A DNA stretch of 43,393 nucleotides, taken from Actinomycetota bacterium (GTDB taxonomy: Bacteria; Actinomycetota; Thermoleophilia; Gaiellales; F1-60-MAGs149). Under the pieces are notes generated by a model. It was not told where the DNA came from. It did no database searches and saw nothing but the letters and a program-made list of their open reading frames with translations. Shown piece after piece: positions 31,655-41,754 of this stretch. Location: positions 1 through 43,393 of the forward strand of contig SYIF01000073.1 in assembly GCA_005798855.1 (NCBI GenBank), read 5' to 3'. Numbering within the stretch: the stretch's first letter is position 1; the number at the start of each line of letters is the position of its first letter. Both the position numbers and the translations under genes were made by a program.

Positions 31655-32530
31655 AGGGTAGAGACGTTCGACGATCGCTTCTGGTGTGGTCAGCCAGGCG
31701 CCGGCCGCCTCGAGCCGACCGAGCAGCTCGTCGAAGAGCACGAGTTCGGCGGGGCCGTGCTCGCCACTAAAGTGCTCGATGGGCACGCTCAGAGCAGCGG
31801 CGCCACCGACGGCAAGCAGGGCTGCCAAACCATCAGAGACCGCATCGTCAAGCAACGGAAACTCGATCGTGTCCGTGGGTCGATCGGTGGCTGGGTCGTA
31901 GCCACGGCTGGGGAACGCGGTGCCTCGGCGAAACCCCGGCCGCCCGGCGATCTGGATGCCGACGCCGGCACCAAGCGAGAAGCCAAGCATGCGCACGCGC
32001 GCCTGCTGCTCTAGCTCGAGCTGGTCGATGGAACGCAATGCAGCGGTGGCGCGATAGCGCTTCTCGACCGTTGCGAGCTCGCTGTAGACAGCGATTGGGT
32101 TGGCAGGCGCAGAGCGGCGCAGCCGGCCCAGTACACCGCGGCGAGGGGGTGTGATTGCACAGGCCTCGTGGACCAAGGCGATCGCACAGGTTGCCCCGGC
32201 CGGCCAGGGGTGGGTGACGCGCAGGCGCTCCGCAGCCACCCAGTCACCGACGCGAGTCCGAATTGCATCGACCGGGTTTGCCCAGACACCCGTCGTACTC
32301 CGCGCCGTCAAGTGGTGATACGCGAAGGCAATCGGATCGACCTCAGCCGAGGTGCGAGCGTCCCACGCCGTCGCCTCAAAGGGAAGTGTCTGCGACGGCC
32401 AGTCGAGCACGACGCTCCCCGTGTGGGCGACGCTGATCCCACTGGAGGCGAGCAGGTCGGTCAGCGTGGCGGAGGCGCGGGCGCCGATTGCGGCCGGGCC
32501 ACCAATCGCGAGGCGCACGACCTCGTTCAT
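31652..32530 (-). CDS. hypothetical protein, degenerate polysaccharide-deacetylase-like
   Basis: Protein of 292 residues with no signal peptide or helix. The C-terminal half (GFRRGTAFPSRGYDP, TIEFPLLDDAV, then VPIEHFSGEHG and AAGAWLTTPEAIV) resembles the later strands of NodB/DUF7033-type polysaccharide deacetylases. The catalytic metal-binding Asp-Asp and HxxxH motifs are not evident, so I infer a degenerate or divergent member. It overlaps the GT2 stop (ATGA) and ends within a 41-bp inverted repeat. A role in surface-glycan assembly follows only from its neighbours. Confidence 0.6.
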   Translation of the reverse strand: MNEVVRLAIGGPAAIGARASATLTDLLASSGISVAHTGSVVLDWPSQTLPFEATAWDARTSAEVDPIAFAYHHLTARSTTGVWANPVDAIRTRVGDWVAAERLRVTHPWPAGATCAIALVHEACAITPPRRGVLGRLRRSAPANPIAVYSELATVEKRYRATAALRSIDQLELEQQARVRMLGFSLGAGVGIQIAGRPGFRRGTAFPSRGYDPATDRPTDTIEFPLLDDAVSDGLAALLAVGGAAALSVPIEHFSGEHGPAELVLFDELLGRLEAAGAWLTTPEAIVERLYP

Positions 32531-33495
32531 GGTGCGGCTCCGTGCGCAGCATTCCACGCGGCAGCGCTCTCGCGCAGCCCTGGCCCGGTTGCTCCCTCAC
32601 GGGCATTACGCACGTGGAGGTCGAGTTCGGTGCGGGGCAGCGTTGGATTGAGGCGACGGAGCGGCCCCGGCAGGGTGGGCAGACGAGCGAGCCCACTGAG
32701 GGCGGCGTACTGCCCGGTCAGGGCGACGCGTGCAGTGGTGCCAGAGAAGCCAGGGTGGTGCTTCGCCCAGTAGCGCCGTCGGCTGCGCCAGAATTCGACG
32801 ATTCGGCGCGACGGGTCGGCGCTGGTCGAGGCGCGCACGTGGTGATGAACGACTGCCTGCGGAACAACGTGCGTCGCAAATCCACGCTGGTGCAGCCGTT
32901 GTTGGAGATCGGTCTCCTCCGAAAACATGTAGAAGCCCTCGTCGAATGGGCCCGTGACCTCGACCGCGGAGCGGCGCAGCAGAAGGGCGCAACCACTCGC
33001 CCAGTCGACCGCCGCCGGAGCGCCCGTGATGCGCTGCTCGACACCAGCCTGACCAAGCGTGAGCAGGCTTTTCAGGCACGTCGTTGGGTCGGGAAAGCGA
33101 AACGACGTTGCCTGATGGCGACCGTCTGGGTAGACGACGGCCGGAGCCGCGACCGCCACCTCGGGGTGGGCGTCGAGGTAGGCGACGAGGGTATCGATGG
33201 CGCCGGGCTCGACCGTCGCGTCGTCGTTGAGGACGAGGTGATACTCGGCTGTACTCTGCTCGAGCAGCCGATTGTGGTTGGCACCAAAGCCGGCGCGGTA
33301 GGGCTGCTCGATGAGCTTGACGTCAGGGAACGCCTCGCGCACTGCTGCGCAGGAGCCGTCCTCTGAGGCGTTATCGAGCACCAGAAGCTCGCAGGGCTCG
33401 CTGGAACTGCCAGGACCTGTCAGGGCAGCCAGCGCCTCGAGCAGGAGGGCGCGATTGCTGTGCGCGACGATGGCGACGGCGAGCCTTGCGCTCAC
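32527..33495 (-). CDS. family 2 glycosyltransferase, rhamnosyltransferase-like
   Basis: GT-A glycosyltransferase of 322 residues. The N-terminal VAIVAHSNRALLLEALAAL and VLDNASEDGS bind the nucleotide sugar; LNDDATVEPGA at ~90 holds the metal-binding Asp pair; and FDEGFYMFSEETDLQQRL is the acceptor-side signature seen in WbbL-like enzymes. Expected cytoplasmic at the membrane face. It starts with GTG, overlapping the epimerase stop (GTGA), so sugar-nucleotide modification and transfer are co-expressed. The transferred sugar is inferred, not seen. Confidence 0.88.
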   Translation of the reverse strand: MSARLAVAIVAHSNRALLLEALAALTGPGSSSEPCELLVLDNASEDGSCAAVREAFPDVKLIEQPYRAGFGANHNRLLEQSTAEYHLVLNDDATVEPGAIDTLVAYLDAHPEVAVAAPAVVYPDGRHQATSFRFPDPTTCLKSLLTLGQAGVEQRITGAPAAVDWASGCALLLRRSAVEVTGPFDEGFYMFSEETDLQQRLHQRGFATHVVPQAVVHHHVRASTSADPSRRIVEFWRSRRRYWAKHHPGFSGTTARVALTGQYAALSGLARLPTLPGPLRRLNPTLPRTELDLHVRNAREGATGPGLRESAAAWNAAHGAAP

Positions 33496-34604
33496 CGCTC
33501 GAGACCCCGCTGACGCAACTCGTCCATCGCCTCGTCGACACGATCGTCGGCCTCTTGGTCGGCGAGCCAGGTGGCGAGCTCGCCGAGGCCAGCCTTGACA
33601 TTTACCTCGGCACGGAAGTCGAGCAGCTGGGCCGCTCGAGTGGGATCCCCGATGCAGTGGCGGATGTCGCCAGCGCGATAGCGGCCGACCAGCTCGGGCT
33701 CGATCGCGAGGTTGAGGCCCTGCGCGAGCCCCTGGGCGACATCGAAGATGCTCGAGGCCTCACCGGTGCAGACGTTGAGCGCCGCGCCGGTGGCCGTCGA
33801 CTCTGTTGCGAGGTGAAATGCGCGCGCCACGTCGGTGACGTGCACGAAATCGCGGGTCTGGAGGCCGTCTTCAAAGGCCACCGGTGCATGGCCGTTGAGC
33901 AGGCGGCTGGCGAAGATCGCGGCCACGCCCGTGTACGGATTGCTGAGCGCCTGGCGTGGTCCGTAGACGTTGAAGAGACGCAGGGCCAAGGTCGACACGT
34001 TGTAGGCAGCGCCGATCGAGAGGCACAGCTCCTCATGGTCGCGCTTGGAGACGGCATAGACGCTGGTCGGCAGCAGTGGCTTCGACTCTGCTGTCCGCTC
34101 TGGCTCGAGCGCATCGCCAGCAGCGGTCTCGAGCTCCCACCGACGTTCGGCTAGTTGGGCCTCTGGACGCAGGCTCGGCGCAAGGCCACCCTCGCCCGTG
34201 CGCGAATTTCGATACTGCCCCTCACCATAGATCGACATCGAGGAGGCAACGACGAGGCGTTGGATCCGTTCGCGTCGGGCCACCAACTGTTCGAGCATGA
34301 CCGCGCAACCGACTGTGTTGACGTCCATGTAGCGGCGAATCTCGTACATCGACTGACCGACTCCGACGACGGCTGCGAGGTGTACAACGGCATCGATGTC
34401 GTCCATCGACTTGCCGAGTGCGGCTTCGTCACGGACATCGCCCACCACGAGCTCGACGTTCGCATCGAGATAGTCGGGAGGACCGTTGGGGTGAACCTGT
34501 GGGTCGAGGGAATCAAACGCGCGCACGTGGTGGCCTGCTGCGAGCAGGCGGTCGGCGAGGTGCGAACCGATAAAGCCGGCACCGCCTGTGACCAAAACGC
34601 GCAT
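33492..34604 (-). CDS. NAD-dependent epimerase/dehydratase (extended SDR)
   Basis: Sugar-nucleotide epimerase of 370 residues. VTGGAGFIGSHL is the Rossmann dinucleotide motif, and the S-Y-K catalytic set appears as SSMSIYG (~121-127) and Y183-x-x-x-K187 (SVYAVSK). The DSLDPQVHPNGPPDYL segment resembles dTDP-L-rhamnose 4-epimerases, which would suit the rhamnosyltransferase-like partner; UDP-glucose 4-epimerase activity is the alternative. A ~45-residue insert at 130-175 is longer than usual. TACCAT 6 nt before the ATG supports the start. Confidence 0.88.
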   Translation of the reverse strand: MRVLVTGGAGFIGSHLADRLLAAGHHVRAFDSLDPQVHPNGPPDYLDANVELVVGDVRDEAALGKSMDDIDAVVHLAAVVGVGQSMYEIRRYMDVNTVGCAVMLEQLVARRERIQRLVVASSMSIYGEGQYRNSRTGEGGLAPSLRPEAQLAERRWELETAAGDALEPERTAESKPLLPTSVYAVSKRDHEELCLSIGAAYNVSTLALRLFNVYGPRQALSNPYTGVAAIFASRLLNGHAPVAFEDGLQTRDFVHVTDVARAFHLATESTATGAALNVCTGEASSIFDVAQGLAQGLNLAIEPELVGRYRAGDIRHCIGDPTRAAQLLDFRAEVNVKAGLGELATWLADQEADDRVDEAMDELRQRGLER

Positions 34605-34616
34605 AAACGAATGGTA
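34605..34616 (-). promoter_or_regulatory. predicted leaderless promoter -10 for the epimerase operon
   Basis: Minus-strand TACCAT (34616-34611) is followed by 6 nt and the ATG at 34604. It gives the epimerase-GT2-deacetylase-like operon its own start in the 45-bp gap. Confidence 0.5.
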
Positions 34617-34649
34617 CGGGGCAGGGCGCGTAGCGTGCGTCCGTCGTGG

Positions 34650-36164
34650 CTAGTTGAGTGGGTTTGTGCGGCTGCTCTGGAGCCCACTCAGCGAGGACGA
34701 CGGGTCGAGGGCAGAGGTGTTAGCTGCCTCGGGGCCGACGATCGTGAGTGCGTTACCCGACAGGGTGGCCTTGCGGGTCAGGCTGACGCTGTCGAGGATG
34801 ACGACGCGACCACCCCGCGCGGCAAAGGCGCGTAGGCGCGCGAGCAGGCCTGCGGTCCAGACGGGAGCATCCGCAATGATCAGGGCGCGGGCGCTACGGG
34901 GCAGGCCACGGGCTTCGATCGACTGGTCTGTGATGGCCCCCACCGTCTGTACGCCGCTGCGCCTGGTTGCTGCAACCGTGCGGCCGAGCGTGGCGAGCGC
35001 GGTCTCGATTCCGGGGGCAAATGGTCGGTCGAGGGCGAGTGGTGCAGGCGGTACATCGGGGAATCCGGAGCGGTCGGCATCGGTTGGGTTGGCTGCTTGC
35101 CACGAGTACAACGGCTCCATCACCAGCACGCGGGCTTGTCCGGCCCGCGCCTCGGGGGCCCACGCCTCCCAGCCACCACCGGTGATCTGAATGGCGTAGA
35201 AGCCGGGTGTTGCCGGCGGCAAGGTGGCTGTCCCGGGCGCGCCGCTGGCGCGTGCCACGATGTCGCCGGGAAAGCGTGTGCGGGGCCGATGTCGCACGAG
35301 GGTGACGTCGGCCAACAGCGTGACGGGTTCCAGGGTTGGGGTGAGTGCGACGGTTTCGACGCCGACAACCTGGGCGGGTGCGAGTTCGTTGGGTTTGACT
35401 ACCTCTGGTGCGTTGACGAGGTTGCCGCCACGGTCTTCGGCATGCCAGCCAACGATGTACGAGCCAGGTCCGACAAACTCACCGAGCGTGTCGAGCGGCA
35501 AGTTGCCGATGTCGGCCGACCAGTGCAGCTCTTTGCGTTGAGCCCACTTGAGGTCGGTCTCGCGGCGCAGCAAGCGGGCAGCGCCGCTCGGCTCGATCTG
35601 GCGCACATCGAGCCGGAAGCGGACGGGTTCGTCTGCGCTGAGCGTGAAGGCATAGGTACCTGCAGCACCATCGAGCCCAGGCGAAATGCGTTGGCCCGGC
35701 TTGGCCGTTGACTTGACGGTGGGTGGCGTCGCATCGAGGATGATTGGATCCGGGATGCGAATAACGCGTTCTTGCTGCTTGAGCGAGATCGCAAAGCGAT
35801 ACGGGCCATCGGGGGCGAGCGTCCCGTTGGCGAGCTTGCCGCCCCAGGCGGCTCGCAACTTCTTGCCTTTGCGCGTGACAGGCACGGTCGCAATTGCGCG
35901 ATCGTTGGCATCGAAAATCAGCACGGTTGCGGTGTCGGGCTTGCGCAATCCGACTGTCAGCGTGGCGTGGCGACGGCGCGGTTTGTATGCATTGGGCGAG
36001 AAGGTGGCGCTGGTAATGGTCGGCGCGATGATCGGGGAGGGCGCGCTCTTGAGGATCTGGGCACGGACGAAAAAGGCCGCTGCGCCCGCGATGAGTGCGA
36101 GCATCAGCAGAGCAGCCAAGATCCGAACGAGTCGCTCCACAGTCCCAATGCTAGAGGGGATCAT
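34650..36164 (-). CDS. membrane-anchored protein with FlgD-Ig-like domains
   Basis: Exported protein of 504 residues held by an N-terminal helix (~12-33) that may act as an uncleaved signal anchor. Residues ~45-140 form a FlgD-type Ig domain (FSPNAYKPRRRHATLTVGL; NGTLAPDGPYRFAI). A second similar domain runs ~150-260 (YIVGWHAEDRGGNLV). The C-terminal half (~300-470) resembles the glutamine-amidotransferase-like end of N,N-dimethylformamidase-type proteins (FYAIQITGGGWEAWAP; MEPLYSWQAANP; RAFAARGGRVVILDS). No catalytic triad is obvious. It overlaps the preceding gene by 14 nt; an internal GTG at 36140 is an alternative start. Confidence 0.72.
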   Translation of the reverse strand: MIPSSIGTVERLVRILAALLMLALIAGAAAFFVRAQILKSAPSPIIAPTITSATFSPNAYKPRRRHATLTVGLRKPDTATVLIFDANDRAIATVPVTRKGKKLRAAWGGKLANGTLAPDGPYRFAISLKQQERVIRIPDPIILDATPPTVKSTAKPGQRISPGLDGAAGTYAFTLSADEPVRFRLDVRQIEPSGAARLLRRETDLKWAQRKELHWSADIGNLPLDTLGEFVGPGSYIVGWHAEDRGGNLVNAPEVVKPNELAPAQVVGVETVALTPTLEPVTLLADVTLVRHRPRTRFPGDIVARASGAPGTATLPPATPGFYAIQITGGGWEAWAPEARAGQARVLVMEPLYSWQAANPTDADRSGFPDVPPAPLALDRPFAPGIETALATLGRTVAATRRSGVQTVGAITDQSIEARGLPRSARALIIADAPVWTAGLLARLRAFAARGGRVVILDSVSLTRKATLSGNALTIVGPEAANTSALDPSSSLSGLQSSRTNPLN

Positions 36165-36630
36165 CGCCGGGCGGCTGATCCTCGACCGTTACCTCGAGAA
36201 TTCGGCGGGAGGCATCGCGCAATCCGCGCAGCACAGCGAGCGCTTCGGGCCAGGCGCTGTCGGGCACGATCAGGTGGTCGCGTGAGGCGGTGCCGACCAG
36301 CACGATCGGCACGCCGCGCTCGGCGAGGGCTCCGCTGATGGTCGACGCGAAGCCTGTCAGTTCGGGTGGAAGTGGTGCCACCAGCAGAATCACGCGGAGC
36401 CGATCCTGTCGGGTATCCGCGGCCGGCAGCGTCTCGGCAAGCGTGGTGCGTAGGAAAAAGGTCGTCTCGAGTGGATCGTCGATGCGGGCACTAAAGCCCT
36501 CAGCGAGGAGGGCCTCAGGCGAGGGCGGCGCCGAGCCGCGCCCGTAGCCGAGCAGGCTAAATTCGTGCTCGAGCAGCATCGGGTCGAGGGCAGCGAGCGC
36601 CGCGATCAGGAGCGGGGAATCGGCAGACAC
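36151..36630 (-). CDS. ACT-domain-like protein
   Basis: Protein of 159 residues. The C-terminal half (LTGFASTISGALAERGVPIVLVGTASRDHLIVP, read in two parts, then WPEALAVLRGL) fits the ACT_7 pattern: a helix, then a strand, then D-x-L-x-V-P. Such domains usually bind amino acids or other small ligands and regulate a partner. The N-terminal half (LLEHEFSLLGYG) may be a second, divergent ACT unit. It starts with GTG 7 nt after TACCCT and is co-transcribed with the FlgD-Ig protein. The partner is not identified. Confidence 0.65.
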   Translation of the reverse strand: MSADSPLLIAALAALDPMLLEHEFSLLGYGRGSAPPSPEALLAEGFSARIDDPLETTFFLRTTLAETLPAADTRQDRLRVILLVAPLPPELTGFASTISGALAERGVPIVLVGTASRDHLIVPDSAWPEALAVLRGLRDASRRILEVTVEDQPPGDDPL

Positions 36631-36665: not shown

Positions 36666-37736
36666 CTACGGCAACGCGGGCAGGTGCTCGGCGCGCAGCA
36701 CGTCGAGGTAGCGCGTGCTACGAAAGCCGATCTCGTGCCCATCAGCGTGTGGTCGCCCAAGGGCCTTCGTGGCGAGTCGCTTGAGCGCAAACTCGGGCAG
36801 CCAGCGATACCAGCGTTGGATCCGATTAAGACGTGCGTAGCCACTGAGGTGTTGCTGATGCAGTGCGGCGTAGCGTGCTTGGGCTTGGGCGGGAGTGAGG
36901 TCGTCCGCGAGGGTGCGCATCACAAGCCGGCCGGCACCGGCTCCAAAGTAGACGGCAGGGCGAATGCCTTCGAGCGTGACAGGCAGGGCCTGGCCAGCGG
37001 CATCGCCGATAAAGAGCACGCCGCCAGCGACGGGATCGCGTGGATTGCAGGCAATTGCGCCGCCATGGTGCTCGCGGCCCGCCCCGAGCGTGTCGCGCTG
37101 ACGGAGCCGTTTCATCGGCGGCTGCAGCGGCTCCTTGATAAACGAGCCAACACCGGCACGGACGTGATCGCCCGCAGGAAACGACCAACCATAGCCCGAT
37201 TTGAGCAGCTGTTTTTCGAGATAGAAGGCGAAGCCGTCGGCGTGGGGCGCAGCGGCCGTGGGTACGTGGTCTTCCGTACCGATCACGAGGCTCGGCTGGC
37301 TGCCACGCGTTGGGCCGGCGGGATCGAGCACGCGGCGCCAGCCCGAGGCGTCGATCAGCCAATCGGCTTCGAGGCGCTCGCCAGCGGATCCGAGCACGAA
37401 GACGCCATCCCGCCCGACGACGCGGATCTGCTCGAACCGCGCATCGGTCTGGCGGGCGATTGCAAGACAGCAGGCCTCGTAGTCGATGACGGCGAATTCC
37501 TCAGGCAGCCGAACATTCCAGTGAGCATCACCAATCTCGACACGCATGCGCGATTCGGCATTGAGGACCGACTCCTCCGCTCCGAGCCACTGCACCAGTC
37601 GAAGTGGCAGTGCGCACGCGGATGTTTGGTGGGCGCCGATCGGCGAGCGGTCGACGATCAGGACATCGCGCCCTCGCAACTCGCGAGCAGCAGTGAGCCC
37701 GGCGAAGGAGGCACCGACGATCAAGACTTCGGTCAT
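36666..37736 (-). CDS. FAD-dependent oxidoreductase, geranylgeranyl-reductase-like
   Basis: Flavoprotein of 356 residues. The N-terminus VLIVGASFAGLTAAREL is the FAD dinucleotide motif. WLIDASGWRRVLDP and FIGDAAGQALPVTLEGIRPAVYFG (in parts) are the later FAD-binding elements of the geranylgeranyl reductase/halogenase group; GWSFPAGDHVRAGVG is also typical of GGR proteins. Members saturate isoprenoid chains of lipids or quinones. The start shares one base with the upstream flavoprotein stop (TGATG), so it belongs to the ComA operon as the third gene. Confidence 0.83.
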   Translation of the reverse strand: MTEVLIVGASFAGLTAARELRGRDVLIVDRSPIGAHQTSACALPLRLVQWLGAEESVLNAESRMRVEIGDAHWNVRLPEEFAVIDYEACCLAIARQTDARFEQIRVVGRDGVFVLGSAGERLEADWLIDASGWRRVLDPAGPTRGSQPSLVIGTEDHVPTAAAPHADGFAFYLEKQLLKSGYGWSFPAGDHVRAGVGSFIKEPLQPPMKRLRQRDTLGAGREHHGGAIACNPRDPVAGGVLFIGDAAGQALPVTLEGIRPAVYFGAGAGRLVMRTLADDLTPAQAQARYAALHQQHLSGYARLNRIQRWYRWLPEFALKRLATKALGRPHADGHEIGFRSTRYLDVLRAEHLPALP

Positions 37737-38920
37737 CAGCGCACCGCGGCGGCGGCGGCCGCACCCGCGCGGCGACCGAAGACGCAGATCTCGAGCAGCG
37801 AGTTGCCCATCATGCGATTACGGCCATGGACGCCGCCGGTAATCTCGCCTGCGGCCCAGATGCCGGGCACCGTGGTGGCGCCATCTTCGTCGATCACGAG
37901 TCCGCCATTTTGGTAGTGCAAAACCGGATAGACCGGGATCAGTTCGGTCAAGGGGTCGAGGCCGGCCTTGCGGTAGCGACGCAGCATGTAGGGAAACGAG
38001 ATTTCGGCGTCGGTAGGATCGACGGGGCGACAGTCGAGGTACACCGCGGGGCGGCCTGTGGGAGTCGTGACCCCGCGACCCTCGGCACACTCGCGGATGA
38101 TCGCCTCGGCCACCACGTCGCGTGGTGCGAGTTCGTCGACGAACTGCGCGCCGGCGGCGTTGCGCAGCAGCGCACCGTAGGCACGCGTCGTCTCGGGCAC
38201 GGCGTAGCCCGCCAGTGATTCGGGCCAAGCGGCCCCCGTCGGGTGTCGTTGCAGAGAGTCGTGGTCGCGCTCGACGCAGCCGATCGCGACCGCAAGCGCC
38301 GCTACCTCACCCGTCGCACCGTCGCCATTGGTCGAGAGTTCGCCTGTCTCCTGGGCCTCCCGCTTGCAGCGCCCGCCAGCAGCTAGGATCAGGGCGCCTG
38401 GCCGGATCTCGAGCTGTTCGCCGCCGCGCTCGAGCAGTGCTGTCCCGTCTGTCGTAAGGGCGATCAAGGGCGCATGATCGAGCAGAGTGATTCCCTCACG
38501 CGCGGTCACGGCATCGCGGAGTGCGCCCGCGATTGCCAGTCCTGTTCGATCGCCGACCTGCAGTAAGCGTTTGCGCGTCGCTCCGCCACAACGGGCGATC
38601 CGTAACGAACCATCGCCTTCACGCGTAAACGCCACGCCCAATTCCTCGAGCCAACGAACAGTCGTGGGACCCTCTTCAACGAGGCGCTGGGCGAGCGTCG
38701 GGTCAGCCGTGTTATGCGAGGATCGCATTACATCGGCAAAGTGGGTTTCGATCGAGTCGTCATCACCGACGGCAGCCTGAATACCACCCTGTGCCTTCGC
38801 CGTGTTGCACGAGGCCACGCCGAGCTTGGTGGCAAGCATCACCGTGGCGCCAGCGTCGTTCGCTGCCAGCGCAGCGGCGAGCCCCGCACCGCCCGAGCCG
38901 ATCACGAGCACGTCAGGCAT
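37736..38920 (-). CDS. NadB/FrdA-like flavoprotein
   Basis: Flavoprotein of 394 residues of the fumarate reductase/L-aspartate oxidase family. VLVIGSGGAGLAAALAA binds FAD. CNTAKAQGGIQAA has Asn where SdhA/FrdA carry the His that bonds FAD covalently, so FAD is probably non-covalent as in NadB. Catalytic-region signatures are present: DELAPRDVVAEAI, LHYQNGGLVIDEDG and GRNRMMGNSLLEICVFG. It lacks the long C-terminal helical domain of SdhA/FrdA, and no iron-sulfur or nadA/nadC partner is nearby. I start at MPDVLVIGSG, 2 bp after the comA stop. The substrate is unknown. Confidence 0.82.
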   Translation of the reverse strand: MPDVLVIGSGGAGLAAALAANDAGATVMLATKLGVASCNTAKAQGGIQAAVGDDDSIETHFADVMRSSHNTADPTLAQRLVEEGPTTVRWLEELGVAFTREGDGSLRIARCGGATRKRLLQVGDRTGLAIAGALRDAVTAREGITLLDHAPLIALTTDGTALLERGGEQLEIRPGALILAAGGRCKREAQETGELSTNGDGATGEVAALAVAIGCVERDHDSLQRHPTGAAWPESLAGYAVPETTRAYGALLRNAAGAQFVDELAPRDVVAEAIIRECAEGRGVTTPTGRPAVYLDCRPVDPTDAEISFPYMLRRYRKAGLDPLTELIPVYPVLHYQNGGLVIDEDGATTVPGIWAAGEITGGVHGRNRMMGNSLLEICVFGRRAGAAAAAAVR

Positions 38921-38922
38921 GG

Positions 38923-39690
38923 TCAGTTTTCGAGACCGAGGATCAGCGACAGCGTGTCGCTCCTCAGGCCCCGGCGTAGCGTTTCGAGCGGGATTGCCTC
39001 GTCCGGGGGGATGTTGCCGAGGTTGACGTCGGGGCCAAAGTGCTTGATGAACCACGCCTGCTGGGCTTTCTGTGGCGCCTCAAACAGCACAGTCGTGACA
39101 TCGATCTCGTGCGCGATCTCGTCGATCAGGCCGCTGCGAACTTCGCCGGTGTTGCGAAAGATGCCGGCAGTGCCCGACTCACGCGCCTCGGTGATGACCT
39201 TCCACGAGCCAGCGGCCAGCTCTTCCTTGATCCATTCGACCCACTGGTAGGGGGCGTAGATTTCTTCGTCGTCTTTCGAGCCGACCTCGCTGAGGACTTC
39301 GAAGTCCTGGGCAAACATGCTGATCAGTTCGAGTTTACGTTCGCGCGACATGTCGATGGTGCCGTCGGAGACTTCGACGTGGGTGAAGCCTTGGGCAGTC
39401 AGCCACGTGCGGTAGTCATCGATGCGACCACGCGCCTCGGCGACCTCGAGCAGCGTGCCACCACAGACGACGGGAATGCCGAGCGACTTGTAGAGGTCGA
39501 GCTTCTTCCCGAGAATCGGCGTCACGTACGAGGTGCCCCAGCCGAGCTTGACGATGTCGATGTAGTCGCCGCTCATCTCGATCATCGACTGGATGTCGGC
39601 GAGACCGAGACCCTTGTCCATGACGTGCGTGATGCCTACATTGCGCGGCTTGGCCACGCGGGCCGGCAGTCCAAGGAAGTCGAGGTTCAT
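38923..39690 (-). CDS. comA: phosphosulfolactate synthase (ComA) homolog
   Basis: TIM-barrel protein of 255 residues. In archaea ComA adds sulfite to phosphoenolpyruvate to make (R)-phosphosulfolactate, the first step of coenzyme M synthesis; plant HSA32 is a relative without that assigned role. Family blocks are clear: GITHVMDKGLG, SGDYIDIVKLGWGTS, GIPVVCGGTLLEVA, EVSDGTIDMSRERKLEL and KVITEARESGTAGIF. Length is normal. No ComB phosphatase or ComC dehydrogenase is in the window. It is the first gene of a tight operon with two flavoproteins. I start at MNLDFLGLP because TATCCT lies 6 nt upstream. Confidence 0.88.
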   Translation of the reverse strand: MNLDFLGLPARVAKPRNVGITHVMDKGLGLADIQSMIEMSGDYIDIVKLGWGTSYVTPILGKKLDLYKSLGIPVVCGGTLLEVAEARGRIDDYRTWLTAQGFTHVEVSDGTIDMSRERKLELISMFAQDFEVLSEVGSKDDEEIYAPYQWVEWIKEELAAGSWKVITEARESGTAGIFRNTGEVRSGLIDEIAHEIDVTTVLFEAPQKAQQAWFIKHFGPDVNLGNIPPDEAIPLETLRRGLRSDTLSLILGLEN

Positions 39691-39742: not shown

Positions 39743-41077
39743 TCACATATGAAACAAGTGGATCGTGATGCGGCAGCCGCCGGCTGGTGCATCGCCAATC
39801 TCCACAGTGCCACCGTGTGCCGCGATGTCTTGGCGCACAATCGCCAGGCCAAGACCGGAGCCTGGACGATCTTGCACGCCGACGCCGCGGCGGAATCGTT
39901 CGAACATCGCCTCACGATCGGCGATCGGGATACCACTCCCCGCGTCGTCGACGGTGATAAGTTCGGGGCGCACCGTCACCGTCACAGGGGAGGATCCGTG
40001 CAGGAGCGCATTCTCCACAAGGTTGCCAAGCGCACGCTCTAGGCGGACAGGGTCGCCAACGAAGGGCGAGGCCTCAGTGTCGAGTTCGATGACGGCTTCG
40101 GGCCGCCGTGCGCGCGCTCGCGCCACAACATCGGCGGCCAGATCGTCTAGCCGAAGCGGCTCGGATTGCTCAACGGGGCGTGCGCCCCGCGCAAGGTCGA
40201 CGATGCTCGTGATCAGCTGCGAGATCTCATCAATCTCGCGGTCAATCGCGATGGCGAGCTGCTGGCGATCCTCCACCGAGAGGGCGCTCTGTGGATTGCC
40301 GAGCGTCTCCACGTCAGTCCGCAGCGCGGTCAGGGGCGTCCGTAACTCGTGGGCCGCATCGGCCACCAGTTGGTCTTGGGCGAGGCGCGCCTCCTCGAGA
40401 CCTGCCAGCAAGGCATTGACGGCAAGAGCGAGGCGGACCGACTCGGCGCCACCCTGCTCGGGCACGCGATGTGAGAGGTCACGATCACGCGCCGCCCCTT
40501 CAACATTCGTGGCGAGGCGGCGTAGCGGGACCAGGCCACGTTCCGCGACGAGCGCGCCGAGGATGATCGCGAAGATGACCCCACCAATGCCAGCAATCAA
40601 AAGCAGGCTGCGCAAGCGGTCAAGCGACGACTGGATCTCGTCAACGGAGCGGGCAACCTGCAACGCCAGATTCGGCTCGATATTGACGGTCAGCGCCCGA
40701 ATGGTCGAGCCATCGACGGTAAACGTCTGGTACTCCGAACCTCCCGCTTTGGCAATCTCCGCGGCGTTCTGCGTCGTGGGCAGGGGCGTCTCGTTCCGTG
40801 GCAGGCGAACGATCTCACCCTTCTCATTGATGAGCTCGGCGAAGATGCCAGGGGCGCCGAAGCGACCATTGGCATTGCCACCAAAGCCCCGATTGGGGTT
40901 GGCCCGATCGGGTCTAAGGGCGGCGTCACCCTCGCGCAGGGCGGCGGCACGAAGGGACGCGTCGACCTCGCTGTAGAGCGAACTCTGTGCCGCTTGGTAG
41001 GTGACAAAGCCACCAACACCAAACGCAACGATCACGGCGATTGCCGCGGCCAAGGCAATGCGGGTACGGAGACTCAC
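39743..41077 (-). CDS. membrane sensor histidine kinase (HAMP, HisKA, HATPase)
   Basis: Two-helix sensor kinase of 444 residues. Helices at ~7-28 and ~157-178 bracket an extracytoplasmic domain of ~128 residues with no named fold. HAMP (~179-232) leads to the HisKA dimer with phospho-acceptor H243 (DAAHELRTPLTAL). The ATPase domain has the N-box LGNLVENALLHG, DDAGSGIP and GSGLGLAIV. It starts with GTG overlapping the regulator stop (GTGA). MprB-like kinases are the nearest type I recognise; the signal may involve the secreted protein encoded first in this operon. Confidence 0.93.
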   Translation of the reverse strand: MSLRTRIALAAAIAVIVAFGVGGFVTYQAAQSSLYSEVDASLRAAALREGDAALRPDRANPNRGFGGNANGRFGAPGIFAELINEKGEIVRLPRNETPLPTTQNAAEIAKAGGSEYQTFTVDGSTIRALTVNIEPNLALQVARSVDEIQSSLDRLRSLLLIAGIGGVIFAIILGALVAERGLVPLRRLATNVEGAARDRDLSHRVPEQGGAESVRLALAVNALLAGLEEARLAQDQLVADAAHELRTPLTALRTDVETLGNPQSALSVEDRQQLAIAIDREIDEISQLITSIVDLARGARPVEQSEPLRLDDLAADVVARARARRPEAVIELDTEASPFVGDPVRLERALGNLVENALLHGSSPVTVTVRPELITVDDAGSGIPIADREAMFERFRRGVGVQDRPGSGLGLAIVRQDIAAHGGTVEIGDAPAGGCRITIHLFHM

Positions 41078-41754
41078 GCTGTGGTCCGCAGCACGTAGCC
41101 GACGCCGCGTACGGTGTCGATCAGTCGCGCCGAGCCTGTGTCACCGAGCTTGCGACGAAGATAGCCAACGTAGACCTCCACGCCGTTCGATGACGTGCGA
41201 GCGTCCATTCCCCAGACGCGATCGAGGATCACGTCGCGGGTCAGCACGTTGTCGGGATTACGCAAGAACAATTCGAGCAGCAGCCGCTCGGTGCGGGTCA
41301 GGTCGACGAGCTTGCCGTCGCGGGTCACGCTGTGGGAGCGGAGGTCGAGCCGCACGCCCGCCACCTCCAAGACGTCGTCGGGCTGGCCGGGATCGGCGAG
41401 CGAGCGTCGGCAGATCGCTCGTAGCCGTGCATCGAGTTCGACGGTCGCGAACGGCTTGACCAGATAGTCGTCGGCGCCGGCATCGAGGCCCTCAACGCGG
41501 TCGGTGACCGCATCGCGTGCAGTCAACATTAGGATTGGCGTCTGCACGCCCGTCTCGCGAAGCGTCCGACAGACATCGAAGCCCGAGCCATCGGGCAAGT
41601 TGACGTCCAAGACGATCGCCTCAATATCGTCGGTTACCGCCATCCGTCCCTCGGCGGCTGTGCCCGCCTCAACGATCTGATGGCCGCGCGCAGTCAGCGC
41701 CCGGCGGATGGCCGAGCGAACGGCCTCGTTGTCTTCGACGATGAGAATGCGCAT
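41074..41754 (-). CDS. OmpR/PhoB-family response regulator
   Basis: Regulator of 226 residues. The receiver domain (1-120) has VEDNE, phospho-acceptor D50 (IVLDVNLPDG), the T at MLTARDA and K in YLVKPF. The C-terminal winged helix (~130-222) is OmpR type: LTRTERLLLELFLRNP, VWGMDARTSSNGVEVYVGYLRRKL (in parts) and VRGVGYVL. It is translationally coupled to the sensor kinase and lies 60 bp after the secreted-protein gene. I start at MRILIVEDNE rather than ten codons upstream. Confidence 0.94.
   Translation of the reverse strand: MRILIVEDNEAVRSAIRRALTARGHQIVEAGTAAEGRMAVTDDIEAIVLDVNLPDGSGFDVCRTLRETGVQTPILMLTARDAVTDRVEGLDAGADDYLVKPFATVELDARLRAICRRSLADPGQPDDVLEVAGVRLDLRSHSVTRDGKLVDLTRTERLLLELFLRNPDNVLTRDVILDRVWGMDARTSSNGVEVYVGYLRRKLGDTGSARLIDTVRGVGYVLRTTA

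Follow-up and report, generated by a model that had tools for sequence, protein, structure and literature searches.

A conserved ComA–flavoprotein gene pair in Thermoleophilia as a candidate variant of ComA-based sulfonate biosynthesis

Organosulfonates make up a large and poorly sourced share of the sulfur cycle, and to our knowledge only a few biosynthetic routes to them have been described. In bacterial coenzyme M (CoM) synthesis, encoded by xcbB1-E1 in Xanthobacter and mycobacteria, the product of phosphosulfolactate synthase (ComA) loses its phosphate, with a lyase giving sulfoacrylate (PMC8727900). The reverse chain of 3-sulfopropionate, sulfoacrylate and sulfolactate is described, on the authority of a thesis, for Roseovarius nubinhibens in a second source, where a TauE is named as the probable 3-sulfopropionate exporter (PMC11489063). 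The present analysis concerns an operon on the 43,393-nucleotide contig SYIF01000073.1 (the window; assembly GCA_005798855.1, genome G000, 72% complete) of an actinomycetotal bacterium of the Thermoleophilia, order Gaiellales, in which ComA is encoded with FlavA, a soluble flavoprotein of the FrdA/NadB fold, and a geranylgeranyl-reductase-like flavoprotein. Most likely, the gene set serves to make a small organic sulfonate, probably 3-sulfopropionate, from phosphoenolpyruvate (PEP) and from sulfate that is first reduced to sulfite. More specifically, we give a probability of roughly 45% to the reading in which the operon supplies the carbon half of a pathway that makes a sulfonate, whereby sulfite and PEP would be converted to phosphosulfolactate, sulfoacrylate and 3-sulfopropionate, followed by export through TauE.

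Conservation of the ComA–FlavA pair and its sulfite context

The comparison covered 61 genomes, counting the window's own together with 60 relatives, and 80 named loci, the latter mostly from metagenome-assembled genomes (MAGs) titled Thermoleophilia, Gaiellaceae or Actinobacteria/Actinomycetota. Orthologues of both ComA and FlavA occur in 44 of the 61 genomes, ComA alone in three, FlavA alone in one, at a contig end, and neither in 13; the corresponding Fisher p value of 1e-9 speaks against chance, phylogeny not being corrected for. At 68 of the 80 loci ComA adjoins FlavA on the same strand, the other 12 being cut by a contig end on the ComA side, and in family f5 of the same class the order LysR-FlavA-ComA is found in all eight genomes with FlavA, Sat coming next in two. 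ComA–FlavA is, in other words, a conserved pair, and the core of the gene set in soil and lake Thermoleophilia. The original prediction had allowed that the neighbourhood might prove unconserved in relatives; the pair is in fact kept across families of the class. The three genomes with ComA and no FlavA form genus g20 (G045-G047; loci L102, L103 and L095), CysH being present in two of them; in G047 a fumarase-alpha gene lies in fragments, suggesting recent loss.

The ComA of the window matches PF02679 at 298.3 bits in a profile search (E=5.3e-89; cut-off 25.2) and the solved ComA structures 1u83 (E=2e-59) and 1qwg, from M. jannaschii (E=5e-50), while ComA proteins adjoining FlavA in the same genus are 82-97% identical to it. 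A comparison of active-site residues had been recommended with the original prediction, and here the nearly invariant Lys139 aligns with Lys137 of M. jannaschii ComA, which we take to be the active-site lysine. Against TIGR03849, a model built for archaeal ComA, the score is 262.4 bits, below the equivalog cut-off of 280. This shortfall would suit a ComA with another substrate, as may hold for plant HSA32, and a pathway that makes no sulfonate; such a reading is very improbable in view of the clear sequence matches to solved ComA structures, the retained lysine and a sulfite-producing module that most relatives have attached to the operon, sulfite reductase usually going undetected. The same module, adjoining ComA in relatives, speaks against an HSA32-type ComA amid unrelated neighbours, which had been raised as the other way in which the idea might fail. 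A second, ~30%-identical ComA stands near a ComB-family gene in G019 and G022 (L110:9397-10987 and L219:9876-12626), apparently as a separate sulfolactate locus.

In relatives from other families, FlavA is usually followed by class I fumarase-like alpha and beta, ComA, CysH, CysC, Sat (or CysD-CysN) and TauE, in that order. The fumarase-like subunits, CysH, CysC, Sat and TauE of the relatives' operon lay outside the view of the original prediction. At 33 loci with the order FlavA>ComA the sequence continues for 6 kb or more downstream; CysH lies there in 29 of them, either Sat or CysD in 29, TauE in 28 and CysC in 26. In the window's genome CysH-TauE-CysD-CysN forms one operon on a separate contig (G000:C119:936-4667), an arrangement common to the genus members examined. 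A PF01077 sulfite reductase was found in only 15 of the 61 genomes; among the 28 genomes that reach 90% completeness and have both ComA and FlavA, 17 gave no PF01077 match and 16 of these 17 hold CysH, counts that carry the caveat that MAGs miss genes. Where members of family f3 have a sulfite reductase (e.g. G017, G020, G041, G042, G048, G050 and G055), CysH adjoins it and is, in most such genomes, a second copy, with another elsewhere. Judged by gene content, CysH without sulfite reductase would in this bacterial order occur mostly with ComA. Because the sulfate-to-sulfite module accompanies ComA and sulfite reductase is mostly undetected, ComA very probably uses sulfite, and the genomic context favours a predicted joining of sulfite to PEP.

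Two further observations concern the module. The CysH at L177:6216-6881 is without the iron–sulfur (Fe-S) cysteines of the window genome's CysH (L207:3978-4667), so both 3'-phosphoadenosine 5'-phosphosulfate (PAPS) and adenosine 5'-phosphosulfate (APS) reductase types may serve the cluster. A sulfotransferase-like gene (cluster c20; L084, L093, L106) near the cluster in several f3 genomes is a candidate user of CysC's PAPS.

FlavA and the proposed route to 3-sulfopropionate

FlavA matches PF00890 (FAD_binding_2; FAD, flavin adenine dinucleotide) at E=8.5e-66, with FrdA/SdhA/NadB as closest sequence relatives. Its AlphaFold model (mean predicted local distance difference test, pLDDT, 96) lies nearest to E. 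coli FrdA 1kf6 (template modelling, TM, score 0.91) and NadB 1knp (TM 0.90) among solved folds, and there is no C-terminal helical domain. Residues H226, R267, H335 and R369 are invariant and equivalent to H232, R287, H355 and R390 of FrdA, which serve in dicarboxylate binding and proton transfer. The invariant Asn39 sits, in the alignment, where FrdA has its covalent-FAD histidine, and the earlier description of an enzyme without covalent FAD was accordingly right. Elsewhere in the pocket Pro242 is invariant, FrdA having Thr244 and the NadB controls Ser, and Cys111 occurs in 35 of 36 FlavA proteins (Ala in one), the same position being Glu in 5/5 NadB controls and Phe in SdhA/FrdA. This Glu, Glu121 of NadB, presumably contacts the substrate amino group. 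Arg107 of FlavA is also invariant.

By score, FlavA falls far below both the NadB and FrdA cut-offs (for the NadB model TIGR00551, 255.9 bits against 452.75), and none of the curated equivalogs tested is reached. All FlavA proteins share one clade in the tree (support 97/96), separate from the NadB and SdhA controls; the nearest neighbour is an FrdA-like protein on a long branch, encoded in an Hdr-type operon of G332, a placement that the tree program flags as unsure. Outside the class, no closer relative of FlavA was found than this fumarate-reductase-like protein of 540 aa (L241:9-5539), whose operon holds apparent HdrA-, MvhD- and FrdB-like genes.

Given the shared fold and catalytic residues, and the many genomes without a separate NadB, FlavA could be thought to be an ordinary L-aspartate oxidase or soluble fumarate reductase that adjoins ComA incidentally. 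This is hardly credible: genomes without NadB are mostly without NadA too, including all 13 of the window's genus, the NadB Glu has become Cys and the FrdA Thr has become Pro, the scores are low, and a distinct clade is paired with ComA across families of the class. An aspartate-oxidase role is disfavoured because none of the 13 genus genomes yielded a NadA, although all are incomplete MAGs and two reach 93%; with the Glu-to-Cys change and the TIGR00551 score, the identification of FlavA as NadB was rejected. Its identification as succinate dehydrogenase was rejected likewise, the covalent-FAD histidine being missing and a separate SdhA-type paralogue being present. In the genus (G000-G012) neither NadA nor a NadB-like gene besides FlavA was found, and the aspartate route of de novo NAD synthesis seems to be missing.

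Complex II enzymes without covalent FAD reduce fumarate and cannot oxidise succinate (PMC5773532, PMC2680327), and Thr244 of FrdA is important for the transition state (PMC5773532). Because complex II, once its covalent FAD bond is removed, still works as a fumarate reductase but no longer as a succinate oxidase, FlavA is by analogy more likely to act in the reducing direction. The opposite, catabolic direction would take 3-sulfopropionate to sulfoacrylate, followed by hydration and reversed ComA cleavage to PEP and sulfite; a catabolic route through 3-sulfopropionate, sulfoacrylate and sulfolactate is indeed reported (PMC11489063), but such a role for the operon is improbable, since CysC, CysH and Sat/CysDN, as assimilatory-type enzymes that yield sulfite, would be superfluous, ComA working in reverse would require a substrate that is phosphorylated, FlavA is without the covalent-FAD histidine, and the conserved neighbours include no recognised sulfonate importer.

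Phosphosulfolactate, sulfolactate, sulfoacrylate and 3-sulfopropionate are phosphomalate, malate, fumarate and succinate with one carboxylate replaced by sulfonate. Fumarase-like and fumarate-reductase-like enzymes beside ComA therefore suggest sulfoacrylate and 3-sulfopropionate as the next compounds. From the gene set, its conservation, the sulfite module, the sulfite reductase undetected in most members and the retained and altered residues of FlavA, all of which are read from sequence, we infer the substrates and products, the direction and the export. Sulfate would be activated by Sat or CysDN; CysH would then reduce it to sulfite, which ComA would join to PEP to give 2-phospho-3-sulfolactate. 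Elimination of phosphate or water would then yield 3-sulfoacrylate, a fumarate look-alike, a step that in most relatives may fall to the class I fumarase-like alpha and beta subunits encoded alongside, with a ComB-family phosphatase perhaps removing the phosphate beforehand. FlavA, with non-covalent FAD, is the proposed sulfoacrylate reductase, giving 3-sulfopropionate, a succinate look-alike, which TauE would probably export. The guess that the neighbouring flavoprotein oxidises or reduces ComA products or related carbon–sulfur compounds, made in the original prediction, thus gains support.

The fumarase-like subunits belong to PF05681 and PF05683, and alpha passes the NF004885 cut-off; beta has the motif TTTSARM(S/V) where archaeal fumarase beta chains have PTTSARMN. 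Alpha occurs in 33 of the 61 genomes, every one of them with ComA, and a FumC-type fumarase in 52; because of both facts a housekeeping fumarase role for the pair is disfavoured. An obligatory partnership was also rejected, since the pair was not found in the window's genus, in family f5 or beside FlavA in L177. G036 has no alpha, has TTSAPT in place of beta's TTSARM, and is the sole genome in which Cys111 of FlavA is changed, a hint of linked decay of the fumarase-like pair and the FlavA pocket, although one case proves nothing.

The constancy of ComA with FlavA, set beside a fumarase-like pair that can be dispensed with, would also suit a FlavA that acts as a flavin-dependent sulfolactate dehydrogenase or oxidase, making (enol-)sulfopyruvate in place of ComC, with cysteate, sulfoacetaldehyde or a derivative as product. 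Complex II flavoproteins can oxidise malate slowly, and sulfolactate is a malate look-alike. Yet this leaves the fumarase-like pair of most members without a role, difficult oxidations are disfavoured by non-covalent FAD, and the conserved neighbours include no recognised ComDE-like or aminotransferase gene; we consider it unlikely.

Several points weigh against the sulfoacrylate route itself. Neither the window's whole family (the genus comprising 13 genomes) nor any of the eight genomes of family f5 yielded a class I fumarase-like alpha. That the elimination step has no such candidate pair in either is the main weakness of the route, and our confidence stays limited because of it. In these genomes FumC or an unclustered lyase could perform the elimination, or else the substrate of FlavA may be a different compound derived from the ComA product. 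FlavA has neither an Fe-S nor a cytochrome partner, and no Fe-S subunit gene was seen in the conserved neighbourhoods. ComB-family genes are found in ComA-less genomes too, which leaves ComB unsupported as a specific partner; the earlier statement that no ComB is present holds for the neighbourhood and not for the genome, which has a PF04029 gene elsewhere (G000:C69:3345-3980; E about 3.3e-58 to 4e-58). To these are to be added the ComA score below the archaeal equivalog cut-off and a geranylgeranyl-reductase-like gene that has no place in the scheme.

The operon and its surroundings in the window

ComA, FlavA and the geranylgeranyl-reductase-like gene form a tight minus-strand operon (Table 1). 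A spacing of 2 bp separates the first two, and the FlavA stop overlaps the third gene's ATG (TGATG), so the close packing originally described is confirmed; domain searches confirm ComA and the FAD_binding_2 protein.

Table 1. Features of the operon and neighbouring genes in the window
Feature	Coordinates	Strand	Remarks
ComA (phosphosulfolactate synthase family)	38923..39690	minus	255 aa; ATG at 39690, TGA end 38923
FlavA, soluble FrdA/NadB-fold flavoprotein	37736..38920	minus	394 aa; ATG at 38920
Geranylgeranyl-reductase-like FAD flavoprotein	36666..37736	minus	356 aa; window's genus only
ACT-domain protein	36151..36630	minus	159 aa; PF13840; 3' of operon, order kept in genus
Histidine kinase and response regulator	39743-41754		upstream of ComA in genus
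FlgD-Ig membrane protein, short-chain dehydrogenase/reductase (SDR), glycosyltransferase 2 genes	32527-36140		after operon

The third protein is only distantly related to geranylgeranyl reductases (GGRs), scoring 82.5 bits against the TIGR02032 cut-off of 158.8. Its model has a mean pLDDT of 81, and the closest solved folds are the GGRs 4opt, 3atq and 3oz2 (17-18% identity; TM 0.68-0.74), with halogenases and hydroxylases scoring close behind. The gene is restricted to the window's genus and was for this reason rejected as a core member; of the three-gene set first proposed, the ComA–FlavA neighbourhood stands, being conserved across families, and the unit of three does not. A MAG titled 'Bifidobacterium breve' (L114) carries the operon of the window's genus, with ComA, FlavA and the geranylgeranyl-reductase-like protein 69-85% identical, and the title is very likely wrong.

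The ACT-domain gene is possibly part of the operon's transcript. The two-component genes lie upstream of ComA in members of the genus; their place is taken in other families by a LysR regulator adjoining FlavA. Relatives of the FlgD-Ig, SDR and glycosyltransferase 2 genes lie near the ComA cluster in family f2 as well (L081), a hint of an envelope link. In this regard, the sulfonate might be made as proposed and then be built into the cell envelope as a sulfonated glycan or lipid instead of being exported, and FlgD-Ig, O-antigen-ligase-like, LmbE, SDR and glycosyltransferase genes are indeed near the cluster in several families. The order and strand of these genes vary, however, the core operon is without an acyl- or glycosyl-transferase, and TauE lies within or beside the sulfite module, all of which makes an envelope fate quite unlikely.

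Significance and comparison with known systems

Were the sulfoacrylate route correct, it would add a sulfonate biosynthesis route and an enzyme class, pairing sulfate-to-sulfite reduction with ComA and fumarate-cycle-like enzymes; and it would suggest why many such bacteria retain APS/PAPS reductase without detectable sulfite reductase. The fuller proposition, of a dedicated Thermoleophilia pathway from sulfate to released 3-sulfopropionate that mirrors the reductive branch of the citric acid cycle and includes a new class of soluble sulfoacrylate reductase, so that these soil and lake bacteria would be an unrecognised source of C3-sulfonates, may be entertained, with the odds against it. The ComA family is known; the gene set may be a hitherto undescribed form of ComA-based sulfonate biosynthesis. 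No paper linking Gaiellales with phosphosulfolactate or with the gene set was found in the open-licence literature searched, which does not prove that none exists.

The bacterial CoM pathway is similar in that ComA adds sulfite to PEP and that sulfoacrylate arises by phosphate elimination, as is proposed here. It has, however, an argininosuccinate-lyase-type pair and a desulfhydrase-type enzyme, neither of which is seen in this cluster; indeed, no xcb lyase-superfamily or other xcb gene was seen in the neighbourhoods examined, no whole-genome search having been made. In their stead stand the class I Fe-S fumarase-like subunits (in relatives), the fumarate-reductase-like flavoprotein and the sulfate-to-sulfite module. 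Sulfolactate synthesis in archaea and Bacillus (ComA-ComB, with ComC in archaea) likewise employs the ComA family, and a ComB-family gene is present elsewhere in the window's genome, but neither ComB nor ComC adjoins ComA here. With fumarate reductase and L-aspartate oxidase FlavA shares its fold and four catalytic residues, but not the covalent-FAD histidine, an Fe-S subunit gene or the C-terminal domain, and its pocket has Cys111 and Pro242. Finally, the relatives' pair has the PF05681 and PF05683 subunits of class I fumarase and tartrate dehydratase, whereas it occurs here only with ComA, usually alongside FumC, and carries an altered beta motif.

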